Made by a program: the position numbers and the translations under genes. A DNA stretch of 64,000 bases, taken from the NCBI RefSeq assembly GCF_000025005.1, contig NC_013525.1, positions 186,001 to 250,000 of the forward strand. Reading direction: 5' to 3'. Origin of the DNA: Thermobaculum terrenum ATCC BAA-798 (lineage in GTDB: Bacteria > Chloroflexota > Chloroflexia > Thermobaculales > Thermobaculaceae). The notes beneath the pieces are model-generated. The model was given only the letters and a program-made list of their open reading frames with translations. It had not been told where the DNA came from and made no database searches. Of the stretch, positions 1,846 to 64,000 are shown one piece after another (within the stretch, counting starts at the first letter, position 1; every line of letters begins with the position of its first letter).

Positions 1846-2105
1846 CTAAAATCAAAATGGCCCTCGCCCTAGGGACGAGGACCACTCGTGGTACCACCCT
1901 GGTTCTCCTGCAGCTTACACTGCAGGACTCTGAGGCCATCTAACTGGCCTACAACCCTATAACGCGGGCGAGACGTCAGCACCTACTCATAGCTGTCAAA
2001 ATCACTATTTTCGGATAGCAGCTCCGAGGCCATGTCGGACGAGTCAGGTACCGGACTCTCAGCAACCCGGCTCTCTGTGACCTAACTAAACCGTCCTACC
2101 GATCC
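1846..2105 (-). promoter_or_regulatory. T-box leader, methionine-specific, upstream of metG
   Basis: Read on the minus strand, the leader has a stem I start with AGAGAGCCGG followed by GTTGCTGAGAG. The specifier loop has GAC-ATG-GCC with the codon ATG (Met) at 2033-2031. The canonical AGGGTGGTACCACG antiterminator box is at 1900-1887, and a terminator hairpin at 1883-1859 is followed by TTTTGATTTT. Aligning it to the ilvB T-box in this window gives the same GA(A/C)-NNN-GCC-NNGGAGC frame around the specifier, which supports the ATG assignment. Uncharged tRNA-Met should favour read-through into metG. It fills most of the 1836-2242 gap. Confidence 0.93.
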
Positions 2106-2163
2106 TCTTCTCAGCTTTTAGATCTTTATTAGATGTTGTTTCTCGATTGTAAGGCGATATAGA

Positions 2164-12909: not shown

Positions 12910-12939
12910 TTGACAGCCCAGGAGCTGGTGTGTTACATT
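12910..12939 (+). promoter_or_regulatory. promoter of the ilv-leu operon
   Basis: Consensus -35 TTGACA (12910-12915), an 18-base spacer and -10 TACATT (12934-12939). Transcription would start near 12946, giving an untranslated leader of roughly 480 bases that carries the T-box and the attenuator described below. Confidence 0.7.
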
Positions 12940-12979
12940 CTTTTCAGCTTTACAAAAACAAACGCTGCGAAAGGGAGTA

Positions 12980-13190
12980 GTAGGGAAGAGGAAGCGCTCA
13001 GAGAGCCGAGGGTTGGTGTGACTCGGACGCTGTAATCTCCCGAACTCGCCCTGGAGCGGTCGGCCTGAAATCTTAGTAGGGTCGAACGGTTAGCGCCCGT
13101 TAGCGCATACGAGTGGTCGTCACTAATAAAGTGGCGGCAACAAGGGTGGTACCACGGGAAGCCCCCGTCCCTTGAGGGACGGGGGCTTCT
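12980..13190 (+). promoter_or_regulatory. T-box leader, leucine-specific, upstream of ilvB
   Basis: Stem I begins with GCGCTCAGAGAGCC and the GGTTGGTGTGACTCGG region. The specifier loop reads GAA-CTC-GCC with CTC (Leu) at 13045-13047, in the same register as ATG in the metG T-box. The AGGGTGGTACCACG box is at 13143-13156. The competing terminator is a stem of AAGCCCCCGTCCC with its complement and a TTGA loop (13159-13188). Only a weak U-rich stretch (CTTCTGG) follows. Uncharged leucyl-tRNA should promote read-through. It occupies much of the 12859-13424 gap. Confidence 0.93.
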
Positions 13191-13207
13191 GGCTTAAGAG
13201 CTTTGAA

Positions 13208-13330
13208 ATGCTTGGAATACAGGTACAAACACAAGTTGATATCATCTTCGCCTTGCAGAAGGCTATCCTTAGCCTTCTAGTACTAGGACTTATTGTGCTC
13301 CTTAGGGTCGCAAATATCTTGGGAGGCTGA
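13208..13330 (+). CDS. putative branched-chain amino acid leader peptide (40 aa)
   Basis: A short frame lying after the T-box terminator and before ilvB. It has an ATG start and a weak AAGAG SD 7 bases upstream. Of 40 residues, 10 are Leu, 6 Ile and 5 Val, with the run LSLLVLGLIVLL at residues 21-32. A 9-bp hairpin (AGAAGGCTA/TAGCCTTCT, 13257-13278) lies inside the frame where a pause hairpin would be expected. The stop codon overlaps GGGAGGCTGA, the first strand of the downstream antiterminator. This is the classical arrangement of an ilv/leu leader peptide. The alternative is a single-helix membrane microprotein, since the run is also hydrophobic enough to span a membrane. Confidence 0.65.
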   Translation: MLGIQVQTQVDIIFALQKAILSLLVLGLIVLLRVANILGG

Positions 13331-13385
13331 CATCAAACACATAAGTCGCTTAGATAAGAAAGCCTCCCAACAAAGGGAGGCTTTC
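13321..13385 (+). promoter_or_regulatory. attenuator: mutually exclusive hairpins before ilvB
   Basis: Three segments compete. GGGAGGCT (13321-13328, at the end of the leader frame) can pair with AGCCTCCC (13361-13368). GAAAGCCTCCC (13358-13368) can instead pair over 11 bp with GGGAGGCTTTC (13375-13385) across the loop AACAAA. A ribosome completing the leader would cover the first segment and allow the second hairpin. A ribosome stalled on Leu/Val/Ile codons would leave it free. No U-tract follows the 11-bp hairpin (AAGTTATAG), so termination may be weak or need a factor. Confidence 0.65.
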
Positions 13386-13424
13386 AAGTTATAGGCACCA
13401 AATATCTGAAAGGGGACGGAGGAC

Positions 13425-15155
13425 ATGGCTATTACAATTGATAAACCCAAGATAGAAGAAACTAAGAAGAAGGAAACTAAGAAGCTTAGTGGCGCCAGGA
13501 TCATGTGCGAGGCCCTCGTGAACGAGGGAGTAGAAATCATATGGGGTTATCCAGGCGGAGCCATAATGCCGTTCTATGATGTATTGCCTGAGTATCCCTC
13601 AATCCATCACGTACTAGTTCGTCACGAACAGGGCGCAGCCCACGCAGCAGATGGCTATGCCAGAGTGACTGGTAAGGTAGGTGTGTGCGTAGCTACATCA
13701 GGCCCTGGCGCAACCAATCTTGTAACTGGCTTGGCAACAGCTTACATGGACTCCGTACCCATAGTAGCCATAACTGGACAAGTAGCTAGACCTTTCATAG
13801 GTCATGACTCGTTTCAGGAAACCGATATAGTAGGGATAACCTTGCCCATTACCAAGCACAACTTCTTGGTAACATCGGCAGACTCCCTGGGAGAAGTTAT
13901 CCACGAGGCATTCAGGATAGCTCGTGAAGGCAGGCCGGGCCCAGTGCTCATAGACGTGCCTAAGGACGTGCAGTTCGAGGAGGGGGAGTATACTCCCCCC
14001 GAGAAGACCTGGGAGGAGCGCAACTCCGACAACGGCTCTGCATATACAGATGAATATATAAGAGCCGCAAGAATAATCGACTCAGCACAAAGACCACTCA
14101 TTATGGCAGGGCACGGAATCATCATTTCTAAGGCTTATGATGAACTTCGTGCATTTGCAGAGAAAACCGGCATCCCGGTCATAACCACCCTGCTAGGTCT
14201 GAGCGCATTCCCAGAGAACCACCCATTGGCACTAGGAATGCCCGGCATGCATGGCCCTGCTCACGTGAACTTGGCTATAGATGAAGCAGATCTGATTGTA
14301 GGTGTAGGATTGAGGTTTGACGATCGAGTAACTGGTAACCTCAAAGAGTTTGCTCCGAACGCGCGATTTATACACATCGACATAGACCCGGCAGAGATAG
14401 GAAAGAACATAAAGCCGGAAGTGGGTATAGTCGCCGACGCGAAGGAAGCTCTTGCCAAGCTGACGGAGCTGGTGTCAAAGAAGGAGCATTCCGGCTGGCT
14501 TGAAGAGATCAAACGCCGTGAGAAACCGGAGCGCTCTGTTATGAAGACCACCAAGATCAGCCCTTATGATGTCCTGAAGGCGATCAAGAAGGCCACCAAT
14601 GGCGAAGCTCGTATCGTAACTGACGTGGGGCAACATCAGATGTGGGCGGCTCGCTTCTATGGTTGGGAAAAGCCCAACAGCCACATATCTTCGGGCGGAT
14701 TGGGAACTATGGGCTATGCGCTTCCGGCTGCCATGGGCGTGAAAGCAGGATGCCCAGAAGATCCGGTATGGGTGGTGGCTGGCGATGGTGGTATCCAGAT
14801 GAATATCCAAGAGCTGGGTACTATTGTCCAAGAAAACCTGGATATAAAGGTGGCCATCATAAACAATGGCTATCTAGGAATGGTAAGGCAATGGCAAGAG
14901 TTCTTCCATAACAGGAATTACTCCGAGACCAGGATATCATCACCCGATTATTCCCTGATAGCCACGGCCTATGGCGCTAAAGGACGCAGGGTCACTCGCA
15001 AGGAGGATGTAGAAGCAGCAGTCGAGTGGGCCATGAGTCAACCCGGCTGCGTGATCCTGGACTTTGAGATAGAGCAGGAAGCTAACGTCTATCCAATGGT
15101 CCCCTCAGGGGGATCGGTCAAGACCATGATCCTGGACCCGGAGGCAAATGAATGA
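13425..15155 (+). CDS. ilvB: acetolactate synthase, large (catalytic) subunit
   Basis: A 576-residue ThDP-dependent enzyme that condenses two pyruvates to acetolactate, or pyruvate with 2-oxobutyrate to acetohydroxybutyrate. Visible features are WGYPGGAIMPFYD, the catalytic Glu in LVRHEQGAAHAADGYAR, the central FAD-binding domain with GVGLRFDDRVTG, and the ThDP/Mg motif GDGGIQMNIQEL with NNGYLGMVRQW. About 20 charged residues precede the conserved domain. The likely SD is AAAGGGG, 9 bases upstream. It is the first structural gene of the operon and overlaps ilvN by ATGA. Confidence 0.97.
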   Translation: MAITIDKPKIEETKKKETKKLSGARIMCEALVNEGVEIIWGYPGGAIMPFYDVLPEYPSIHHVLVRHEQGAAHAADGYARVTGKVGVCVATSGPGATNLVTGLATAYMDSVPIVAITGQVARPFIGHDSFQETDIVGITLPITKHNFLVTSADSLGEVIHEAFRIAREGRPGPVLIDVPKDVQFEEGEYTPPEKTWEERNSDNGSAYTDEYIRAARIIDSAQRPLIMAGHGIIISKAYDELRAFAEKTGIPVITTLLGLSAFPENHPLALGMPGMHGPAHVNLAIDEADLIVGVGLRFDDRVTGNLKEFAPNARFIHIDIDPAEIGKNIKPEVGIVADAKEALAKLTELVSKKEHSGWLEEIKRREKPERSVMKTTKISPYDVLKAIKKATNGEARIVTDVGQHQMWAARFYGWEKPNSHISSGGLGTMGYALPAAMGVKAGCPEDPVWVVAGDGGIQMNIQELGTIVQENLDIKVAIINNGYLGMVRQWQEFFHNRNYSETRISSPDYSLIATAYGAKGRRVTRKEDVEAAVEWAMSQPGCVILDFEIEQEANVYPMVPSGGSVKTMILDPEANE

Positions 15156-15676
15156 GTACTCAAGGGAGAACACTCGTAGCGCTGGTACAAGATCATCCTG
15201 GAGTCCTAACTCGTATATCTGGACTCTTCCGCAGGAGAAACTTCAACATCGAGAGCTTGGCAGTAGGCCACTCGGAAAAGCCAGGCGTTAGCCGCATGAC
15301 TATAGTAGTCAACGGAGATGCCTCCGAAGTGGATCAGGTAGTAAAGCAGCTATCCAAACTCATAGAAGTCATCGAAGTCAAAGACATAAGCGAAGGGGCT
15401 CCACTCCTGCGAGAGCTAGCCCTGATAAGGGTCGCGGTAGATGGAACCAAGCGAACAGAGGTCACCGAGCTCGCAAAGCTCTTCGGAGCCAAAGTTATAG
15501 ATATCTCTCATCATTCTATAACCCTGGAGATGACAGGCTCGGAATCTAAGGTAGACTCCTTGGTAAGGCTACTCGAGCCATTTGGAATAACTGAAATGGT
15601 GAGGACTGGCAGAGTAGCAATGGCAAGAGACATGGCAGATACATCTTCGGCTGAGAGAAGCGCCATCAGCGCCTAA
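15152..15676 (+). CDS. ilvN: acetolactate synthase, small (regulatory) subunit
   Basis: A 174-residue subunit with an N-terminal ACT domain ([21 protein letters not shown]), the valine-sensing part, and a C-terminal domain containing LALIRVAV and the [19 protein letters not shown] segment. It binds IlvB, stimulates it and confers feedback inhibition. The start overlaps the ilvB stop by 4 bases, so the two are translationally coupled. Length is normal for the bacterial type (about 160-175 residues). Confidence 0.96.
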
Positions 15677-15698
15677 AAATTTCGATAGAGGGAGATTT

Positions 15699-16706
15699 AT
15701 GGCACAAGTTTACTACGATGCAGATGCTGACATAAACGTTATCAAGGATAAGCTCATAGCGATCATTGGCTATGGCAGTCAAGGGCATGCGCACGCTCTA
15801 AACCTGCACGATTCTGGTTGCAATGTAATAGTAGGACTACATGAAGGTAGCAAGAGCGCAGAAAAGGCTCGGAACGACGGTTTGGAAGTTAGATCCGTAG
15901 CAGAGGCAGCAGAAGCTGCAGATATTATCATGATGCTCATCCCTGACACTATACACAAGAAAGTGTATGAGGAATCCATAGCGCCAGCAATGAGAGCTGG
16001 AAAGACGCTGATGTTCGCACATGGTTTCAGCATCCATTACGGACAGGTGAAACCTCCCGCAGAAGTTGATGTAGTCATGGTAGCCCCAAAGAGCCCCGGC
16101 CACATTATGCGTAACCTGTTCACTCAGGGAATAGGGGTACCAGCACTGCTGGCTGTATATCAGGATGCTAGTGGTCAGGCCGAACAGACAGGCTTAGCAT
16201 ATGCCAAAGGACTAGGATGTACTAGGGCAGGGGTGCTAAAGACCACATTTAAAGAAGAGACTGAAACTGACCTGTTTGGTGAGCAAACAGTGCTCTGTGG
16301 TGGTGTTAGCGCACTGATCAAGGCCGGATTTGAGACTCTAGTAGAAGCGGGCTATCAACCCGAAATAGCTTACTTCGAGTGTCTGAATGAGATGAAGCTC
16401 ATCGTAGACCTGATCTATCAGGGAGGGCTCAGTTACATGCGATACAGCATAAGCGATACCGCTGAGTACGGGGACTACGTAGCAGGGCCCAGAATAATCG
16501 ATGAGCATGTCAGAGAAAACATGAAGCAGATCCTAAAGGAGATTCAGGACGGAAGCTTCGCACGAAGATGGATAGAGGAGAACGAGAAGGGTAGACCTGA
16601 GTTCGAGAAGATGAGAGAGCAGGACAGGAACCACCTCATCGAGCAAGTAGGGCAGAAGCTTAGGGCAATGATGAGCTGGACACAACCACAACCAGCTAAC
16701 AGGTAG
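15699..16706 (+). CDS. ilvC: ketol-acid reductoisomerase
   Basis: A 335-residue class I enzyme that isomerises and reduces acetolactate or acetohydroxybutyrate with NADPH. The N-terminal Rossmann domain has [17 protein letters not shown]. The C-terminal knotted domain carries the metal and substrate ligands in [17 protein letters not shown] and in [14 protein letters not shown]. The SD is AGAGGGAG. It lies 22 bases after ilvN. The last residues ([11 protein letters not shown]) are a short non-conserved tail. Confidence 0.97.
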
Positions 16707-16741
16707 CAACAAATGTAGTACCGGCCCCAGGAGGCAGGAAA

Positions 16742-16885
16742 ATGACACAGTACAGCTATATGTGGCAGGACGCACAGGAATTCGCAAGCATGATCTGGGC
16801 CTCATTAACGGAGACCCAACAGCAGGAAGAGGATCAGGATCAGGAAGCTGAGTGCACGCAAGCTATTGCATGGTGTTACGAATAG
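16742..16885 (+). CDS. 47-residue acidic peptide in the ilv-leu operon, unknown
   Basis: A short frame between ilvC and leuA with a strong SD (CCAGGAGGCAGGAAA-ATG). Its stop TAG overlaps the leuA SD (TAGGAGG), a layout typical of translational coupling. The peptide has 10 Asp/Glu, 9 Gln, 3 Trp and 2 Cys but no Lys, Arg or His, and only one Leu and no Val. That composition argues against a Leu/Val leader peptide. I recognise no family. It could be a small regulatory or assembly partner of a neighbouring enzyme, or simply a coupling frame. It fills the 188-base gap between two enzymes. Confidence 0.6.
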   Translation: MTQYSYMWQDAQEFASMIWASLTETQQQEEDQDQEAECTQAIAWCYE

Positions 16886-16894
16886 GAGGCACAA

Positions 16895-18076
16895 GTGAGC
16901 GAGATAGTAAGAATCTTCGACACAACATTGAGAGATGGGGAACAGTCACCAGGAGTAAACCTTAGCGCTCATGAGAAAGTGCTCATAGCTGAGCAGCTTG
17001 TCAGACTTGGGGTGGATATCATAGAAGCTGGCTTTCCCATATCCTCTCCCGGAGACCTCGAGGCCGTACGCCAGGTAGCCAACACAGTCAAGGGTGTGGT
17101 AGTAGCAGCCCTGGCCAGAGCTAACAAGGCGGATATAGACGCCGCTTGGGAGGCTGTAAAGGGAGCAGAGCAGCCGATGATCCATACATTTATATCCACC
17201 TCTGACCTACACATTCACTATAAGCTGCGCAAGACAAGAGATGAGGTGCTCGAAGCAGCCGAACAAGCGGTAAGATACGCTAAGCAGTTCACAGAAGAGG
17301 TCGAGTTCTCAGCTGAAGATGCCTCCAGAACAGATCCTGACTACCTCTGCAAGGTGTACGAAGTTGCTATCAACGCGGGTGCTACAGTAATAAATGTGCC
17401 CGATACCGTAGGTTACGCTGAGCCAAACGAGTTCTCGGCACTGATTCGTACCCTCTACGAAAGAGTTCCCAATATCCACAAAGCCGTCGTAAGCGTCCAC
17501 TGCCACGATGACCTGGGTCTGGCTACCGCGAACACCTTGGCAGCTATTCGCGAAGGTGTTGGACAAGTAGAAGTGACTATAAATGGCATCGGAGAGAGAG
17601 CAGGTAATACCTCTCTTGAGGAGGTGGTGATGGCGCTGGCAACGAAGCCGGCAGCCTTCAACAACAGGAAAACGCGTATCAATACTCGTGAGCTAGTACC
17701 TACTAGCAAGCTTGTCAGTCAGCTAACCGGCATGGTAGTGCAGCCCAACAAGGCTATAGTGGGAGCCAACGCCTTCGCTCATGAGGCAGGTATACACCAG
17801 GATGGCGTGCTCAAAAACCCGCTGACATACGAAATCATGACACCAGAATCAGTCGGTTGGCAAAACAGCAAGATCGTTTTGGGTAAGCATTCCGGTAGGC
17901 ATGGCTTTGCATCCAGGCTATCGGAAATGGGTATACAACTGAGCCCAGAGGAGCTGGATATCGCTTACAACCAGTTCAAGCGCCTAACAGACGAGCGCAA
18001 GCATATAACAGATGATGATCTAGTAAATCTTATAAAGAGCGTTAGAGCCAGCAGGCAAGAAGTTAGCATAACTTAG
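16895..18076 (+). CDS. leuA: 2-isopropylmalate synthase, catalytic part only
   Basis: Condenses acetyl-CoA with 2-oxoisovalerate, the committed step to leucine. The TIM barrel has [13 protein letters not shown], the metal-binding HCHDDLG motif and NGIGERAGN, followed by the linker segments [10 protein letters not shown] and KHSGRHGF. At 393 residues it ends near the LeuA linker ([16 protein letters not shown]), where full-length LeuA (about 510 residues) continues into the regulatory LeuA_dimer domain. Only 25 bases separate it from ilvE, so the domain is absent rather than frameshifted. Start GTG, with TAGGAGG upstream. Homocitrate synthase is a possible alternative, but the sequence is closer to LeuA throughout. 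Confidence 0.9.
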
Positions 18077-18101
18077 GTTTGACCACCTGGAGGACAAAGA
18101 G

Positions 18102-19070
18102 TTGACGGTCAAAGCAGAACAAAAACCTAAACCAATACCTACCGACCTTGAGACGAACTGGTGCTATTTCAAAGGGGAGATCATGCCTTTGGCTGACGCC
18201 AAGGTGAGCGTAGCTACCCATGCCTTAAACTATGGCACAGCATGCTTTGAAGGGATAAGAGCCTACTGGAATGACAACCAGCAGCAGATGTATGTGCTCA
18301 AGATGAGGGAGCACTACCAGAGATTCCTCCGTAACTGTGGCCTCATCAAAATTAAGCTAAACCAAACAGTGGAAGATCTTTGCAATATCACACTCGAAGT
18401 TTTACGCAAGAACCAATACAAGCAGGATGTATATATCCGACCTCTAGCCTTTAAGGCTACGCCCACCATCAAGCTTATGCTCAGTGGGCTGGAAGACGAA
18501 GTAACTATATACACCTTCCCTATGGGGAACTACGTAGATATATCGTCCGGGCTAAACGTCAGTATCTCTTCGTGGCAGAGAATCAATGATAATGCCATAC
18601 CGGCTAGAGGCAAGATATGTGGCGCTTATGTAAACAGCGCACTGGCCGTAGATGATGCTTTGCAAGCTGGCTTCGATGAAGCCATATTCCTTACTAAAGA
18701 TGGTAACGTGTCTGAAGGCAGCTCTTGTAACCTCTTTATCATTAGAGGTAAGGAGCTTATAACTCCGGCAGTCACTGAAGACATACTGGAGGGCATAACG
18801 CGTGCCGCCATTATTGAGCTGGTCAGCGCAGAAGAAGATCTGGGGTTGAGAGTAATTGAGAGACCGATCGATCGGTCAGAACTTTATCAGGCAGACGAAG
18901 TCTTCTTCTGCGGCACAGGAGTACAGGTATCGCCTGTTACACGTATAGATGACAGAGCTATAGGTAATGGCACTCCAGGTAAATTCACCTTGGAGATTCA
19001 AAAGCGTTACTTTGCCGCTGCCCGGGGAGACAATGACAAGTATATGCACTGGGTCACGCCAGTTTACTAA
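18102..19070 (+). CDS. ilvE: branched-chain amino acid aminotransferase
   Basis: A 322-residue fold-type IV PLP enzyme that transfers the amino group between glutamate and the 2-oxo acids of Leu, Ile and Val. Visible features are ALNYGTACFEGIRAY, the likely PLP Lys in ARGKICGAYVNSALA, and EGSSCNLFI with a later FFCGTGVQVSPV that holds the cofactor phosphate. Start TTG, with TGGAGG 8 bases upstream. It is co-transcribed with leuA and leuB. Confidence 0.96.
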   Translation: MTVKAEQKPKPIPTDLETNWCYFKGEIMPLADAKVSVATHALNYGTACFEGIRAYWNDNQQQMYVLKMREHYQRFLRNCGLIKIKLNQTVEDLCNITLEVLRKNQYKQDVYIRPLAFKATPTIKLMLSGLEDEVTIYTFPMGNYVDISSGLNVSISSWQRINDNAIPARGKICGAYVNSALAVDDALQAGFDEAIFLTKDGNVSEGSSCNLFIIRGKELITPAVTEDILEGITRAAIIELVSAEEDLGLRVIERPIDRSELYQADEVFFCGTGVQVSPVTRIDDRAIGNGTPGKFTLEIQKRYFAAARGDNDKYMHWVTPVY

Positions 19071-19132
19071 AACTTACACCTTCCCTATTTGCTAATCTAG
19101 ATCAAAACATAAATGCAAATCGGAGTTGAAAG

Positions 19133-20254
19133 TTGAGCAAAGCTTATAACATAGCAGTTCTGCCAGGAGACGGAATAGGACAAGAAGTCGTGCCCGAAGC
19201 TGTCAGAGTTCTTAAGGCCATAGCTGATATATATGGGCATAGTTTCCAGTTTGAGGAGATGCTCGTAGGTGGCGCAGCCATAGACGCGTATGGCACACCG
19301 TTAAGAGACGAAGATCTAGAGAAGTGCAAGCAGGCAGATGCAGTATTGTTTGGGGCAAACGGTGGCCCTAAGTGGGATAACCCTAAAGCAGAGGTTAGGC
19401 CCGAGCAGGCATTACTCTGGCTTAGAAAAGGCTTGGAACTGTTCGCCAACCTGCGCCCAGTAAAAGTCACTGACTCTATGCTCGACGCTTCTCCACTCAA
19501 GCCCGAGCTGGTAAAGGGGGTAGACTTAGTCGTCGTCAGAGAGCTAACCGGCGGCATATACTTTGGCCAGCCATCCAAAAGATGGGAGGAAAACGGCCAG
19601 AGACATGCTGTGGATACCCTCTACTACAGCGAAGAGGAAATACGGCGCGTCGTACGTACAGCATGCGACATAGCCATGAGCAGACGTAAGAAGGTTACCA
19701 GCGTCGACAAAGCAAACGTACTATCCAGTTCCAGGTTGTGGCGAGAAGTAGCCACTGAGGTAGCCCAGGAATACCCAGAGATAGAGATGGAGCACATATT
19801 AGTAGATGCAATGACTATGCATATAATGCGAGCTCCCAAGAGCTTCGATGTAATAGTAACCGAGAATATGTTTGGCGACATCCTTACGGACGAGGCTGCC
19901 ATGCTTACTGGCTCTATAGGGCTGCTGCCATCTGCAAGCTTGGGAGCAAGAGTCAAGGAAAATGGGATACGCCCAGGGCTCTACGAACCTATCCACGGCT
20001 CCGCTCCAGACATAGCTGGGAAAGGCATAGCCAATCCGACAGCTACCATTCTCAGCGCTGCCCTAATGCTCAGATACTCGTTTGGTCTTGAAAATGAGGC
20101 CTCATCTATAGAACAGGCTGTATCCAAGGCATTGTCGGAAGGCAAGGCAACAGCAGACATCGTACGTGATGGCAAAGCACTCTCAACCCGAGAGATGACC
20201 GACGTAATAATCAACTACATCTACGAGAACTCCAAGTCTACTACGGGAGTATAA
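19133..20254 (+). CDS. leuB: 3-isopropylmalate dehydrogenase
   Basis: A 373-residue NAD-dependent enzyme that oxidises and decarboxylates 3-isopropylmalate. The family signature is present in NMFGDILTDEAAMLTGSIGL, with VRELTGGIYFGQP (substrate Arg/Tyr) and the NAD-binding EPIHGSAPDIAGKGIANP. TTG start with CGGAG upstream. The 62-base gap after ilvE is the widest in the second half of the operon, and I see no hairpin in it. It may also act on 3-methylmalate from the citramalate route. Confidence 0.96.
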   Translation: MSKAYNIAVLPGDGIGQEVVPEAVRVLKAIADIYGHSFQFEEMLVGGAAIDAYGTPLRDEDLEKCKQADAVLFGANGGPKWDNPKAEVRPEQALLWLRKGLELFANLRPVKVTDSMLDASPLKPELVKGVDLVVVRELTGGIYFGQPSKRWEENGQRHAVDTLYYSEEEIRRVVRTACDIAMSRRKKVTSVDKANVLSSSRLWREVATEVAQEYPEIEMEHILVDAMTMHIMRAPKSFDVIVTENMFGDILTDEAAMLTGSIGLLPSASLGARVKENGIRPGLYEPIHGSAPDIAGKGIANPTATILSAALMLRYSFGLENEASSIEQAVSKALSEGKATADIVRDGKALSTREMTDVIINYIYENSKSTTGV

Positions 20255-20277
20255 GCCTCTTTGAAGGAGATCCAGAA

Positions 20278-21876
20278 TTGAGACAGATAAAGATCTATGA
20301 CACTACTTTAAGAGATGGCTCTCAAATGGAGGGGATTTCCTTCTCTGTCGAGGACAAGCTGAAGTTGACAAGGCGCCTCGACGAGCTTGGAGTTCATTAC
20401 ATTGAGGGGGGCTGGCCAGGTTCCAATCCTAAGGACGCCGAATACTTTGAGAGGATGAAGAACATTCCTCTCAAGAATGCTAAGCTGGCAGCTTTCGGCT
20501 CAACGCGAAGAGCATACGCATCCGTTGAGGAAGACCTGAACCTGAGGATGCTGATCGAAGCTGGCACTCCAGTCATAACTCTGGTAGGCAAGAGTTGGGA
20601 CATGCAGGTACACGTGGTGCTAGGTTGCTCGTTAGAAGAGAACCTAGCTATGATCAAAGATTCCATAGCATTCTGTAAGTCCTACGGCAAGGAAGTATTC
20701 TTTGATGCAGAGCACTTCTTTGACGGATACAAGAATAATCCTGACTACGCTATGCGATGTATACACGCGGCTATAGAGGCTGGGGCGGATGCTGTAGTGC
20801 TGTGCGATACCAACGGGGGTAGAATGCCCGAGGAGATAGCGCAGGCCGTTGAGAAGGTCGTAGAAGAGACGAGAGCAATAGCAGCGACAAGGCCCTTTGA
20901 CGTCGGCATACACACCCACAACGACTCTGAATTGGCAGTAGCCAACACCTTGATAGCCGTGCAAAAAGGCGCTACCCAGGTCCAAGGGACTATAAATGGC
21001 TATGGTGAGCGTATAGGCAATGCTAACCTCTGCTCGATAATAGCCAATCTGGAACTGAAATACGGTTACCACACTATTGGCCGAGAAAAGGTAAAGGAGC
21101 TTACGTCTGTCTCAAGGTACTTCGCTGAAGTAGCTAACATGGCTCATGACGAAAGACTACCCTATGTTGGGGCAAAAGCCTTTACACATAAAGCTGGGCT
21201 GCATGTCAACGCTGTAGCCAAATCGGCTGAGACTTACGAACACCTACCACCTGAGCTAGTCGGAAACACCAGGCGAGTAACTATATCCGAGCTGGGTGGT
21301 AGATCCAACGTACTCATGAAGATGGCTCAGTTCGGACTGGAGGCGCATACCTCCTCGGAACAGGTAAGACAGGTGCTCGAAGAGGTAAAAAGGCTTGAAA
21401 AAGAGGGTTTTCAATTCGAAGATGCTGAAGCCTCATTCGAACTGCTGGTTCTTCGAGCACAGCCAGACTATGAACCACCATTTAGGCTACTGGATTTCAT
21501 GGTCGTATCCGAGAGCCGTAATGGCGGCGAGTTTCTGTCCGAGGCAACTGTGAAGATCAAGGTAGGTAACGAAGTGATGCACACAGCGGCAGATGGGGAC
21601 GGCCCTGTAAATGCCTTGGACAGGGCTATGCGCAAGGCACTTGCGCCATTCTATCCAGAACTTGATCCAGTACACCTTACGGACTATAAGGTACGAGTAT
21701 TGGATAACGAATCTGGAACTGCTGCTACAGTACGCGTATGGATCCAGTCCACTGACGGTAAGAGCACTTGGAATACCGTTGGTTCTTCAACCAACATTAT
21801 TGAAGCTAGCTGGTTGGCGCTTGCTGATAGCTTGGAGTATCCACTCCGATCAATCAGCAAGCGTAGGCTAAGATAA
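20278..21876 (+). CDS. cimA: (R)-citramalate synthase
   Basis: A 532-residue enzyme that condenses acetyl-CoA and pyruvate, giving 2-oxobutyrate for isoleucine without threonine. It has [21 protein letters not shown] and [10 protein letters not shown], typical of CimA rather than LeuA, and the metal motif [13 protein letters not shown]. Unlike the LeuA of this operon, it keeps the C-terminal LeuA_dimer regulatory domain (about residues 390-525), expected to sense isoleucine. TTG start with GAAGGAG upstream. Threonine dehydratase is also encoded at 58.7 kb, so two routes to 2-oxobutyrate coexist. Confidence 0.93.
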
Positions 21877-21907
21877 TCAAAATCATCTTCTGGAATCGGG
21901 GGACGCT

Positions 21908-23317
21908 ATGGCACCAAGGACACTTGCAGAGAAGGTTTGGGAAGATCACGTAGTACGTAGATCACCAGGAGAGCCTGACCTGCTTTATATTGATCTGCAT
22001 CTCGTGCATGAAGTTACATCTCCTCAGGCATTCGAAGGGCTAAGGCTCGCAGGGCGTAAAGTCCGTAGGCCAGATCTAACTCTGGCTACGATGGACCATA
22101 ATGTACCTACGACCGGCCTTCAGTTTGGAATAACAGATCCTATTTCTAGAGCTCAGGTAGAGGCTCTGAAGAAAAACTGTGCAGATTTTGGAATCAGATT
22201 ATTTGGGATGGGAGACCCCAGACAAGGCATAGTCCACGTCATAGGTCCTGAACAGGGACTGACACAGCCTGGAATGACCATAGTTTGTGGAGATAGCCAC
22301 ACTTCCACACACGGAGCTTTTGGCGCACTAGCTTTTGGAATCGGGACCAGCGAAGTTGAACACGTACTGGCTACACAATGTCTCTGGCAGCGAAAACCTA
22401 AGATGATGGCCATAGAAGTAAACGGAGAGCTGCCTATAGGTGTTACCGCTAAGGATATTATCCTTGGCATCATCGAGAAAATCGGCGTAGATGGTGGTAA
22501 TGGCCACATAATCGAGTATAGAGGCGATACCATCCGCTCACTCTCGATGGAACAGAGAATGACCATATGCAACATGTCCATAGAGGCCGGTGCGAGAGCA
22601 GGAATGATAGCGCCTGATGATACCACTTTCAAATACATTGAAGGGAGACCCCATGCCCCCAAAGGCAAAGCATGGGAGAAGGCGCTCGAGTATTGGCAAT
22701 CCCTGCCTACGGATGAGGGAGCCCAGTTCGATAAAGTGGTGAAGCTGGATGCAAGCCAGCTTGAGCCGTACGTGACATGGGGTACAAACCCAGGACAGTC
22801 GGTGAAGATCACTGGGAGAGTACCCGACCCCAGCGAAGCTAAGACGCCTGCAGAGAGGGAAGCTATGGAGCGGGCACTTAAGTACATGGGGCTTGAGCCT
22901 GGCACCCCCATGACAGAGATCAAGATAGATACTGTCTTCATAGGCTCTTGTACCAATGCACGTATAGAAGATTTAAGGGCTGCAGCTAAGATCCTTAATG
23001 GACGCAAGGTGGCTAAAGGCGTGCGTGCAATGGTTGTACCCGGCTCCATGCAAGTCAAGGCTCAAGCTGAAAGAGAAGGACTTGACAAGATATTCAAAGA
23101 AGCTGGGTTCGAGTGGAGAGATTCTGGATGCTCAATGTGTCTTGGTATGAACCCAGACATACTGGAGCCTGGCAAGAGAAGCGCATCCACCTCCAACCGA
23201 AACTTCGAGGGAAGACAGGGACCGGGTGGTAGAACCCACCTTATGTCTCCGATTATGGCTGCAGCTGCAGCTGTTGCCGGCCACCTGGTTGATGTGCGCG
23301 AATGGGAGGTTAAATAA
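21908..23317 (+). CDS. leuC: 3-isopropylmalate dehydratase, large subunit
   Basis: A 469-residue aconitase-family subunit with a [4Fe-4S] cluster. The ligands are visible as the Cys in [12 protein letters not shown] and the CSMCLG pair near residue 410. The substrate-loop segment [13 protein letters not shown] is intact. Together with LeuD it isomerises 2-isopropylmalate and probably citramalate. It is followed by leuD after only 3 bases. Confidence 0.97.
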
Positions 23318-23320
23318 CCG

Positions 23321-23914
23321 ATGAAAGCTATCAACAAAGTAGAGGGCATAGTAGCACCCCTCGACAGACCTAACATAGATACCGACCAAATAATGCCTAA
23401 GCAGTTCCTGAAGAGAATCGAGCGTACAGGCTTCGGTCCATTCACATTCTATGACTGGAGAAAAGAGCCTGACTTTATTCTGAATCGACCAGAGTACCAG
23501 AACGCTAAGATATTAGCCACTGGACCGAACTTTGGATGTGGTTCATCCAGGGAACATGCTCCCTGGGGACTACAGGATATGGGGTTTGATGTGATTATAG
23601 CTCCAAGCTTCGCGGATATATTCCGAAACAACTGCACCAAGATTGGTCTACTATGCGTAGAGCTTCCTGAAGATCAGGTCAGGGAGATTATAAAACTTGC
23701 TCTAGATAATCCGGGAATAACTGGCAAGGTAGACATGGAGGCTCAGACCGTCGAGGTTGGAACCCTGAGGGCCAACTTCAATATAGATCCATTTGTCAAG
23801 CATAGACTTCTCAACGGGCTGGATGATATAGGGCTAACTCTGCAGCATGTAGCTGATATAGATGCTTACGAGGCAAGAAGACCCGAGTTCAAGCCTGTTA
23901 CTATATTGAGCTAA
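23321..23914 (+). CDS. leuD: 3-isopropylmalate dehydratase, small subunit
   Basis: A 197-residue swivel domain with NIDTDQIMPKQFLKRIERTGFG and GCGSSREHAPWGL, of the E. coli LeuD type (about 200 residues) rather than the short archaeal type. It is the last gene of the ilv-leu operon. A strong palindromic terminator follows 31 bases later. Confidence 0.97.
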   Translation: MKAINKVEGIVAPLDRPNIDTDQIMPKQFLKRIERTGFGPFTFYDWRKEPDFILNRPEYQNAKILATGPNFGCGSSREHAPWGLQDMGFDVIIAPSFADIFRNNCTKIGLLCVELPEDQVREIIKLALDNPGITGKVDMEAQTVEVGTLRANFNIDPFVKHRLLNGLDDIGLTLQHVADIDAYEARRPEFKPVTILS

Positions 23915-63773: not shown

Positions 63774-64000
63774 TGGTCGTGCTAGACGGGGAACTAGCGG
63801 TGCCCTGTACCCGCAATCCGCTATAGCGGGGTCGAATTCCCCTTCGCGGTCCGGCCCTTTAGGACTGGCTCCGCCAAGCGGCGATGATGGTTGGGTCCCA
63901 CACGGCGGAAGCCCGCGAACCCCGCCAGGTCCGGGAGGAAGCAACGGTAAGCGGTCACTTCCGGGTGTTGTGGGGTAGCCTAACCGGAGCTAGCTAGCGA
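63774..64000 (+). ncRNA. ffs: signal recognition particle RNA, long form, 3' end cut off
   Basis: The 5' part GGTCGTGCTAGACGGGG and the following TAGCGGTGCCCTGTACCCGC form the Alu domain (helices 3 and 4), typical of the long SRP RNA of Gram-positive and related bacteria. The conserved Ffh-binding hairpin (helix 8) is recognisable as CCAGGTCCGGGAGGAAGCA followed by ACGGTAAGCGG. About 227 bases are in the window; the full RNA (about 270 bases) continues past the right edge. It guides nascent membrane proteins to the SecYEG translocon. Confidence 0.9.

Follow-up and report, generated by a model that had tools for sequence, protein, structure and literature searches.

The window, a stretch of 64,000 nucleotides from Thermobaculum terrenum ATCC BAA-798, belongs to a genome whose two contigs (2,026,947 and 1,074,634) add up to 3,101,581 bases, and Thermobaculum is placed by the NCBI taxonomy in the Thermobaculaceae of the Chloroflexota. 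On its forward strand lies a likely operon with the gene order ilvB-ilvN-ilvC-leuA-ilvE-leuB-cimA-like-leuC-leuD (13425-23914). The first gene, ilvB (13425-15155), encodes the large subunit of acetolactate synthase and was recognized by the Pfam TPP_enzyme N, M and C domains. The remainder (15152-23914), assigned from its open frames and Pfam matches, consists of ilvN (15152-15676), ilvC (15699-16706), a leuA-like gene (16895-18076), ilvE (18102-19070), leuB (19133-20254), a cimA-like gene that is the second with HMGL/LeuA_dimer domains (20278-21876), leuC (21908-23317) and leuD (23321-23914). Upstream of ilvB, also on the forward strand, a promoter can be read from the sequence (TTGACA-18-TACATT, 12910-12939), the TTGACA element of which is kept in four other leaders of the family, and a Leu T-box sits between this promoter and a frame of 40 codons. 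We discarded the idea of a second promoter between T-box and frame, as none was found and the T-box terminator is separated from the frame by only 17 nt. Elsewhere in the window, a further T-box (98 bits; 1868-2121, minus strand) is located directly upstream of a methionyl-tRNA synthetase-like gene (231-1835), and a large bacterial SRP RNA lies at the window end (63777-64000), its 3' side being cut off.

The T-box and the leader frame upstream of ilvB

The T-box (12958-13175, forward strand) is of full length, with stem I, specifier and T-box antiterminator, and matches RF00230 over model positions 1-219 with 147.3 bits (gathering 93; E=5e-33), which makes it the top scorer among ten T-boxes in the genome. 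This match, together with a reading of the specifier codon CTC (Leu) at 13045-13047 in the context GAA CTC G, confirms the Leu T-box proposed in the initial annotation. The specifier corresponds to the GAG anticodon of tRNA-Leu(GAG), for which one gene was found in the genome, and the discriminator A of this tRNA (A-CCA end) is compatible with the UGGU of the T-box. A hairpin with a 15-bp stem (13157-13190, forward strand; -35.6 kcal/mol, z -5.6), the putative terminator, overlaps the antiterminator, and hence the two are competing structures. The U-tract of this terminator is poor in the window, but strong and of the TTTTTT type in relatives.

The frame downstream of the T-box (13208-13330, forward strand) encodes the peptide MLGIQVQTQVDIIFALQKAILSLLVLGLIVLLRVANILGG*, in which 21 of the 40 residues are Leu (10), Ile (6) or Val (5), with a Leu/Ile/Val run at about codons 20-32. 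This composition had been pointed out before, and its enrichment exceeds chance, at least ten Leu/Ile/Val residues per 12 being found in only one of 3000 shuffles of 13176-13424. Leu is encoded ten times in the run, by CTT (five), CTA (two), TTG (two) and CTC (one) but never by CTG, a preference that is milder than that of the class. The Shine-Dalgarno motif of the frame is weak in the window, whereas plausible and better sites are present in relatives. Within the frame, segments 1 and 2 form a hairpin of 9 bp (13257-13278, forward strand; -12.7 kcal/mol), and segment 2 (13270-13278) is also able to pair with segment 3; the hairpin is thus present as annotated, but the pause position ascribed to it finds no counterpart in relatives, in which it is not conserved. 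The fold of the whole frame reaches only z = -1.9.

Segment 3, TTGGGAGGCT (13319-13328, forward strand), overlaps the last codons of the frame and the first base of its stop codon, and can pair as an antiterminator strand with AGCCTCCCAA, in the 5' arm of the strong hairpin that precedes ilvB. This 5' arm, segment 4 (GAAAGCCTCCC, 13358-13368), is common to antiterminator and hairpin, and the 3' arm, segment 5 (GGGAGGCTTTC, 13375-13385), is followed by AAGTTATAGG, both on the forward strand. As had been noticed earlier, GGGAGGCT occurs twice (13321-13328 and 13375-13382) and competes for a single AGCCTCCC (13361-13368), and the pairings turn out to be longer than was then stated, the antiterminator comprising 10 bp (13319-13328 with 13361-13370) and the attenuator hairpin 11 bp (13358-13385). 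The calculated energies are -17.0 kcal/mol for the 3:4 antiterminator hairpin versus -20.2 kcal/mol for the 4:5 attenuator hairpin; folding of 13345-13400 gives z = -7.0, and none of 200 shuffles reached the antiterminator score of the window. For a functionless long hydrophobic frame that happens to be followed by a direct repeat before ilvB speaks the fact that one short frame in a single genome would, on its own, mean little, but chance is already refuted by these shuffle controls and by the class-wide recurrence described below, and its probability is negligible.

Folding up to segment 4 with the bases covered by a ribosome masked predicts that the antiterminator is available for stalls at codons 1-34 and lost from codon 35 onwards; the run extends to codon 32, and the modelled switch falls between codons 34 and 35. 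When segment 5 is included, hairpin 4:5 is predicted to win at equilibrium for every ribosome position, and therefore the switch would have to be kinetic, decided during transcription, as in known attenuators. The earlier statement that the attenuator hairpin lacks a U-tract was nearly right, since UUUCAAGUU follows its G+C-rich core, and a pattern scan detected no standard terminator. Searched against Rfam at a relaxed threshold, this second stage gave only matches at chance level, and thus it corresponds to no listed Rfam family.

Conservation in the Thermobaculum family and the class

Readable leaders were available from five members of the family, representing four genera (the window, G001, G002, G003 and G005), while two further members (G004 and G006) were left out because they lack a readable ilvB leader. 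The alignment of relatives, which had been proposed as a check, revealed the same order in all five leaders: a TTGACA promoter, a T-box with the Leu specifier CTC, the T-box terminator, a Leu/Ile/Val frame, the hairpin and ilvB. In the relatives of the family the hairpin before ilvB is AAGCCTCCC/GGGAGGCTT, and the frame end GGGAGGCTGA is identical in G002 and the window.

The ilvB loci of 86 genomes of the class outside the Thermobaculum family were compared with these leaders. Throughout the class (Chloroflexota), ilvB leaders combine a run of Leu/Ile/Val codons with a GCCTCCC/GGGAGGC hairpin and with an antiterminator close to where the run ends. At least nine Leu/Ile/Val residues per 12 were found in 46 of 78 leaders (the family included) versus 0.06% of shuffles, and hairpin and antiterminator recur in the families f1 (the Thermobaculum family), f6, f7, f9, f10, f11, f12 and f13, the antiterminator reaching p<0.05 against shuffles in 32 of 50 leaders. 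The pairing of antiterminator and hairpin is stronger within a genome than with the hairpins of other genomes (21.2 versus 18.0; none of 2000 permutations) and reaches into the hairpin loop, which is unconstrained by the hairpin itself (1.02 versus 0.45 bp; none of 5000 permutations), results that are strong support rather than an exact probability, because relatedness was not modelled in the permutations. At one and the same pair, G-C, C-G and A-U alternatives occur. The spacing between the last codon of the run and the antiterminator, 20 nt as the class-wide median, roughly matches the stretch that a ribosome can reach. Where relatives lack a T-box, a comparable TTGACA promoter is located directly 5' of the leader frame.

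The codons of the runs differ clearly from those of the ilvB genes that follow. CTC and CTT together account for 81% of the Leu codons versus 43% in the genes, and CTG for 8% versus 47%; among Val codons GTA makes up 59% versus 4%, the genes preferring GTC/GTG, and among Ile codons ATT makes up 64% versus 15%, the genes preferring ATC. The attenuator stage of the initial annotation thereby gains class-wide homologues with covarying pairing and biased codons. The genome containing the window has tRNA-Leu(GAG), tRNA-Val(UAC) and tRNA-Phe clustered at G000:C1:1815390-1815676 (L239), and the first two of these read codons preferred in the class leader runs (CTC/CTT and GTA).

These properties bear on the proposal that the product of the frame is a small hydrophobic protein with a function of its own, the hairpin being a terminator or processing site unrelated to it. 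The frame is conserved and the run could form a membrane helix, but no Pfam family was matched, and the peptides have only the run in common, the remainder varying in length and sequence. Moreover, the bias of the Leu/Ile/Val codons and the covariation of the frame end with the hairpin loop are properties of the RNA and not of a peptide, so that a protein function appears highly improbable. A conserved small hairpin, CTCC..GGAG, is found over the last Leu codons of the run in many class leaders (for example L029-L032), among them four of five f1, eight of ten f6 and eight of ten f9 leaders, and is absent from the window and from f7. The majority of the window's family relatives thus carry it rather than the 9-bp hairpin, and it may explain the recurrent peptide ending LLIG(W)S.

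Alternatively, control may rest with the T-box alone, frame and hairpin being remnants of the ancestral attenuator that have been dead since the T-box was inserted. In line with this, the second hairpin of the family leaders has a poor U-tract, the Shine-Dalgarno motif in the window is weak, and so is the antiterminator in genus g2 (G001 and G005), which contains one A.C mismatch and is no better than shuffles. Nevertheless, frame, codon type and hairpin have persisted over four genera although the flanks have diverged, and the codon bias of the family has been kept, 26 of 30 Leu codons of the runs being CTC or CTT. Furthermore, a copy of the unit before gltB, described below, also retains the frame, the GGGAGG end and the hairpin with a different sequence. 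The poor U-tract itself is common to relatives without a T-box, in which no such device other than the attenuator was seen; as the T-box-free families f7 and f12 share it, it is no sign of decay after T-box insertion. We therefore regard a dead second stage as quite unlikely.

The same feature could alternatively indicate that the second stage acts without intrinsic termination, hairpin and translated frame steering Rho-dependent termination, pausing or RNA decay. In the families f1, f7 and f12 the hairpin is strongly conserved, and yet the U-tract after it is weak, with means of 4.2-5.0 T per best eight bases. In contrast, the homologous hairpins of the more distant families f6, f9 and f11 end in good U-tracts (5.7-6.2), and the ancestry of the device thus points to a terminator. 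A non-intrinsic mode of action is rather unlikely, though it deserves consideration. A point against the second stage as such comes from Streptomyces coelicolor, in which codon changes in a similar ilvB leader frame were, according to work cited in PMC1262725, without effect on regulation.

Probable acquisition of the T-box and the copy before gltB

With a covariance model, a T-box before ilvB was found to be absent in 85 of the 86 class loci outside the Thermobaculum family. The single exception is G007, a member of family f2 (locus L086), in which a Leu T-box precedes ilvD-ilvB and no Leu/Ile/Val frame is present. Leaders that keep the T-box and have lost both the frame and the compensatory pairing had been named in advance as evidence against a two-stage leader, and G007 matches this pattern in part, in another family and before a different gene pair. 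In the same locus (about 750-1110 after reverse complement), a second, partial T-box antiterminator-terminator lies no more than about 80 nt beyond the Leu T-box. T-box-like cores picked up by a regular expression in three other class loci (G127, G134 and G099) were rejected, as they were unsupported by the covariance model.

Since 85 of 86 outside loci lack a T-box, while each of the five family leaders has both stages, the most probable course of events is that a complete Leu T-box entered between the promoter and the frame of an ancestral attenuator in the Thermobaculum lineage. The opposite direction, with loss of the T-box in many families, would be the less economical explanation.

Another T-box (141.5 bits) is present at G000:C1:530195-530413 on the minus strand (L002/L249). 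It is followed by a frame, MLVRDFPVKTQKLYLNIKVLSIGLLAAIEGG*, that ends in GAGGGAGGTTGA, by a AAGCCTCCC..GGAGGCTT hairpin and by a gene read as gltB (glutamate synthase), and is thus a diverged copy of the whole unit. Its specifier region, GAACGCGG, is one base longer than that of ilvB, and the specifier therefore reads CGC (Arg) or GCG (Ala) and not the Leu codon CTC. In four relatives (L256-L259) ilvB and gltB share a contig, gltB following downstream at a distance of about 6-9 kb, while in the genome of the window it lies elsewhere, and none of these four has a T-box before gltB. The proximity of the two genes in relatives raises the possibility that gltB left the ilv neighbourhood together with a copy of the leader.

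Proposed mechanism and comparison with known systems

We consider it likely that the ilv-leu operon is controlled by a serial two-stage transcription attenuator, the second stage of which is ancestral to the class, whereas the T-box was added in the Thermobaculum family. Transcription from the promoter at 12910-12939 would yield the Leu T-box, and uncharged tRNA-Leu(GAG), bound to the CTC specifier and the T-box bulge, would prevent formation of the terminator at 13157-13190. The leader frame would be present only in transcripts that have passed this terminator. A ribosome that reaches the end of the frame would cover segment 3, so that hairpin 4:5 forms and transcription stops; a ribosome that runs short of charged tRNA and stalls within the Leu/Ile/Val run would instead allow 3:4 pairing and transcription into ilvB.

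As the CTC and CTT codons of the run and the T-box can use the same tRNA-Leu(GAG), leucine would be tested twice, by the RNA and then by the ribosome. The two-stage reading of the initial annotation stands in that both stages are present in order and the second has class-wide support, but not as a clean two-input gate: leucine feeds both stages, and the wording of a simple AND gate was rejected. The combination T-box(Leu) AND attenuator(Leu OR Ile OR Val) would reduce to 'Leu short', and the T-box should therefore have made the ancestral three-amino-acid device Leu-dominant and sharper. A shortage of isoleucine or valine alone would be blocked at the first stage, leak excepted, and the stacking of both devices may be expected to result in lower basal expression and a steeper response to leucine. 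For the full sequence of events, in which tRNA-Leu(GAG) is read twice in series, insertion of the T-box into the ancestral attenuator turned a three-amino-acid OR into a sharpened Leu-dominant gate, and the unit was later copied to gltB, the chances appear about even.

For the same task, textbooks present T-boxes and leader-peptide attenuators as alternatives. The nearest precedent for their combination is the rtpA (yczA, anti-TRAP) leader of Bacillus subtilis, in which, as reportedly described by Chen and Yanofsky in 2003 and 2004 (cited in PMC11255114), a Trp T-box is followed by a Trp leader peptide that controls translation of rtpA. As here, a T-box and a leader-peptide frame are arranged in series and the same uncharged tRNA is sensed by both, but the second stage found here looks like a transcription attenuator with terminator and antiterminator, would serve Leu, Ile and Val, and heads a biosynthetic operon. 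The ilv operons of E. coli and Salmonella are controlled by leader-peptide attenuators. Others have been described for ilvB of Actinobacteria (PMC1262725) and ilvD of Staphylococcus aureus (PMC5794164), and these systems share with the present leader a Leu/Ile/Val codon run that overlaps or adjoins alternative hairpins before ilv genes, but have no T-box in front. Comparative work has indicated that T-box and leader peptide replace each other between lineages (PMC2965389).

The T-boxes of B. subtilis ilvB-leu and of ilvB in other Bacillota likewise are Leu T-boxes with a CTC specifier before ilvB. Tandem T-boxes before ilvB have been reported in Bacillota (PMC12452182), so that the second stage, where present, is another T-box, in contrast to the leader-peptide attenuator found here; in seven Paenibacillus/Bacillus loci checked, no Leu/Ile/Val frame followed the ilvB T-box. 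A review (PMC9481103) covers the T box(Leu)-ppGpp riboswitch AND gate, in which a Leu T-box is likewise coupled in series to another RNA stage; this stage senses ppGpp and not ribosome stalling. Transcription of Salmonella mgtCBR is steered by tandem attenuators with two short frames in a single leader (PMC3641672), but there is no T-box and the signals are others. A T-box followed by a branched-chain leader-peptide transcription attenuator was not found reported in the literature searched, subscription papers being largely outside it.

One lineage thus seems to have stacked two devices that are normally alternatives, and a heat-loving bacterium would pass its Leu/Ile/Val genes through two RNA checkpoints. 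As close relatives preserve the apparent state before insertion, the gain of a second sensor is directly testable, and removal of the first stage should return the three-amino-acid response of the relatives. The ilv leader peptides that we found described for Proteobacteria, Actinobacteria and Firmicutes are now extended across a class of the Chloroflexota. Leu/Ile/Val-rich frames were also observed before ilvB in Thermosporothrix, Thermoflexales and Litorilinea (L124, L139 and L159), and hence the leader peptide may not be confined to the class.
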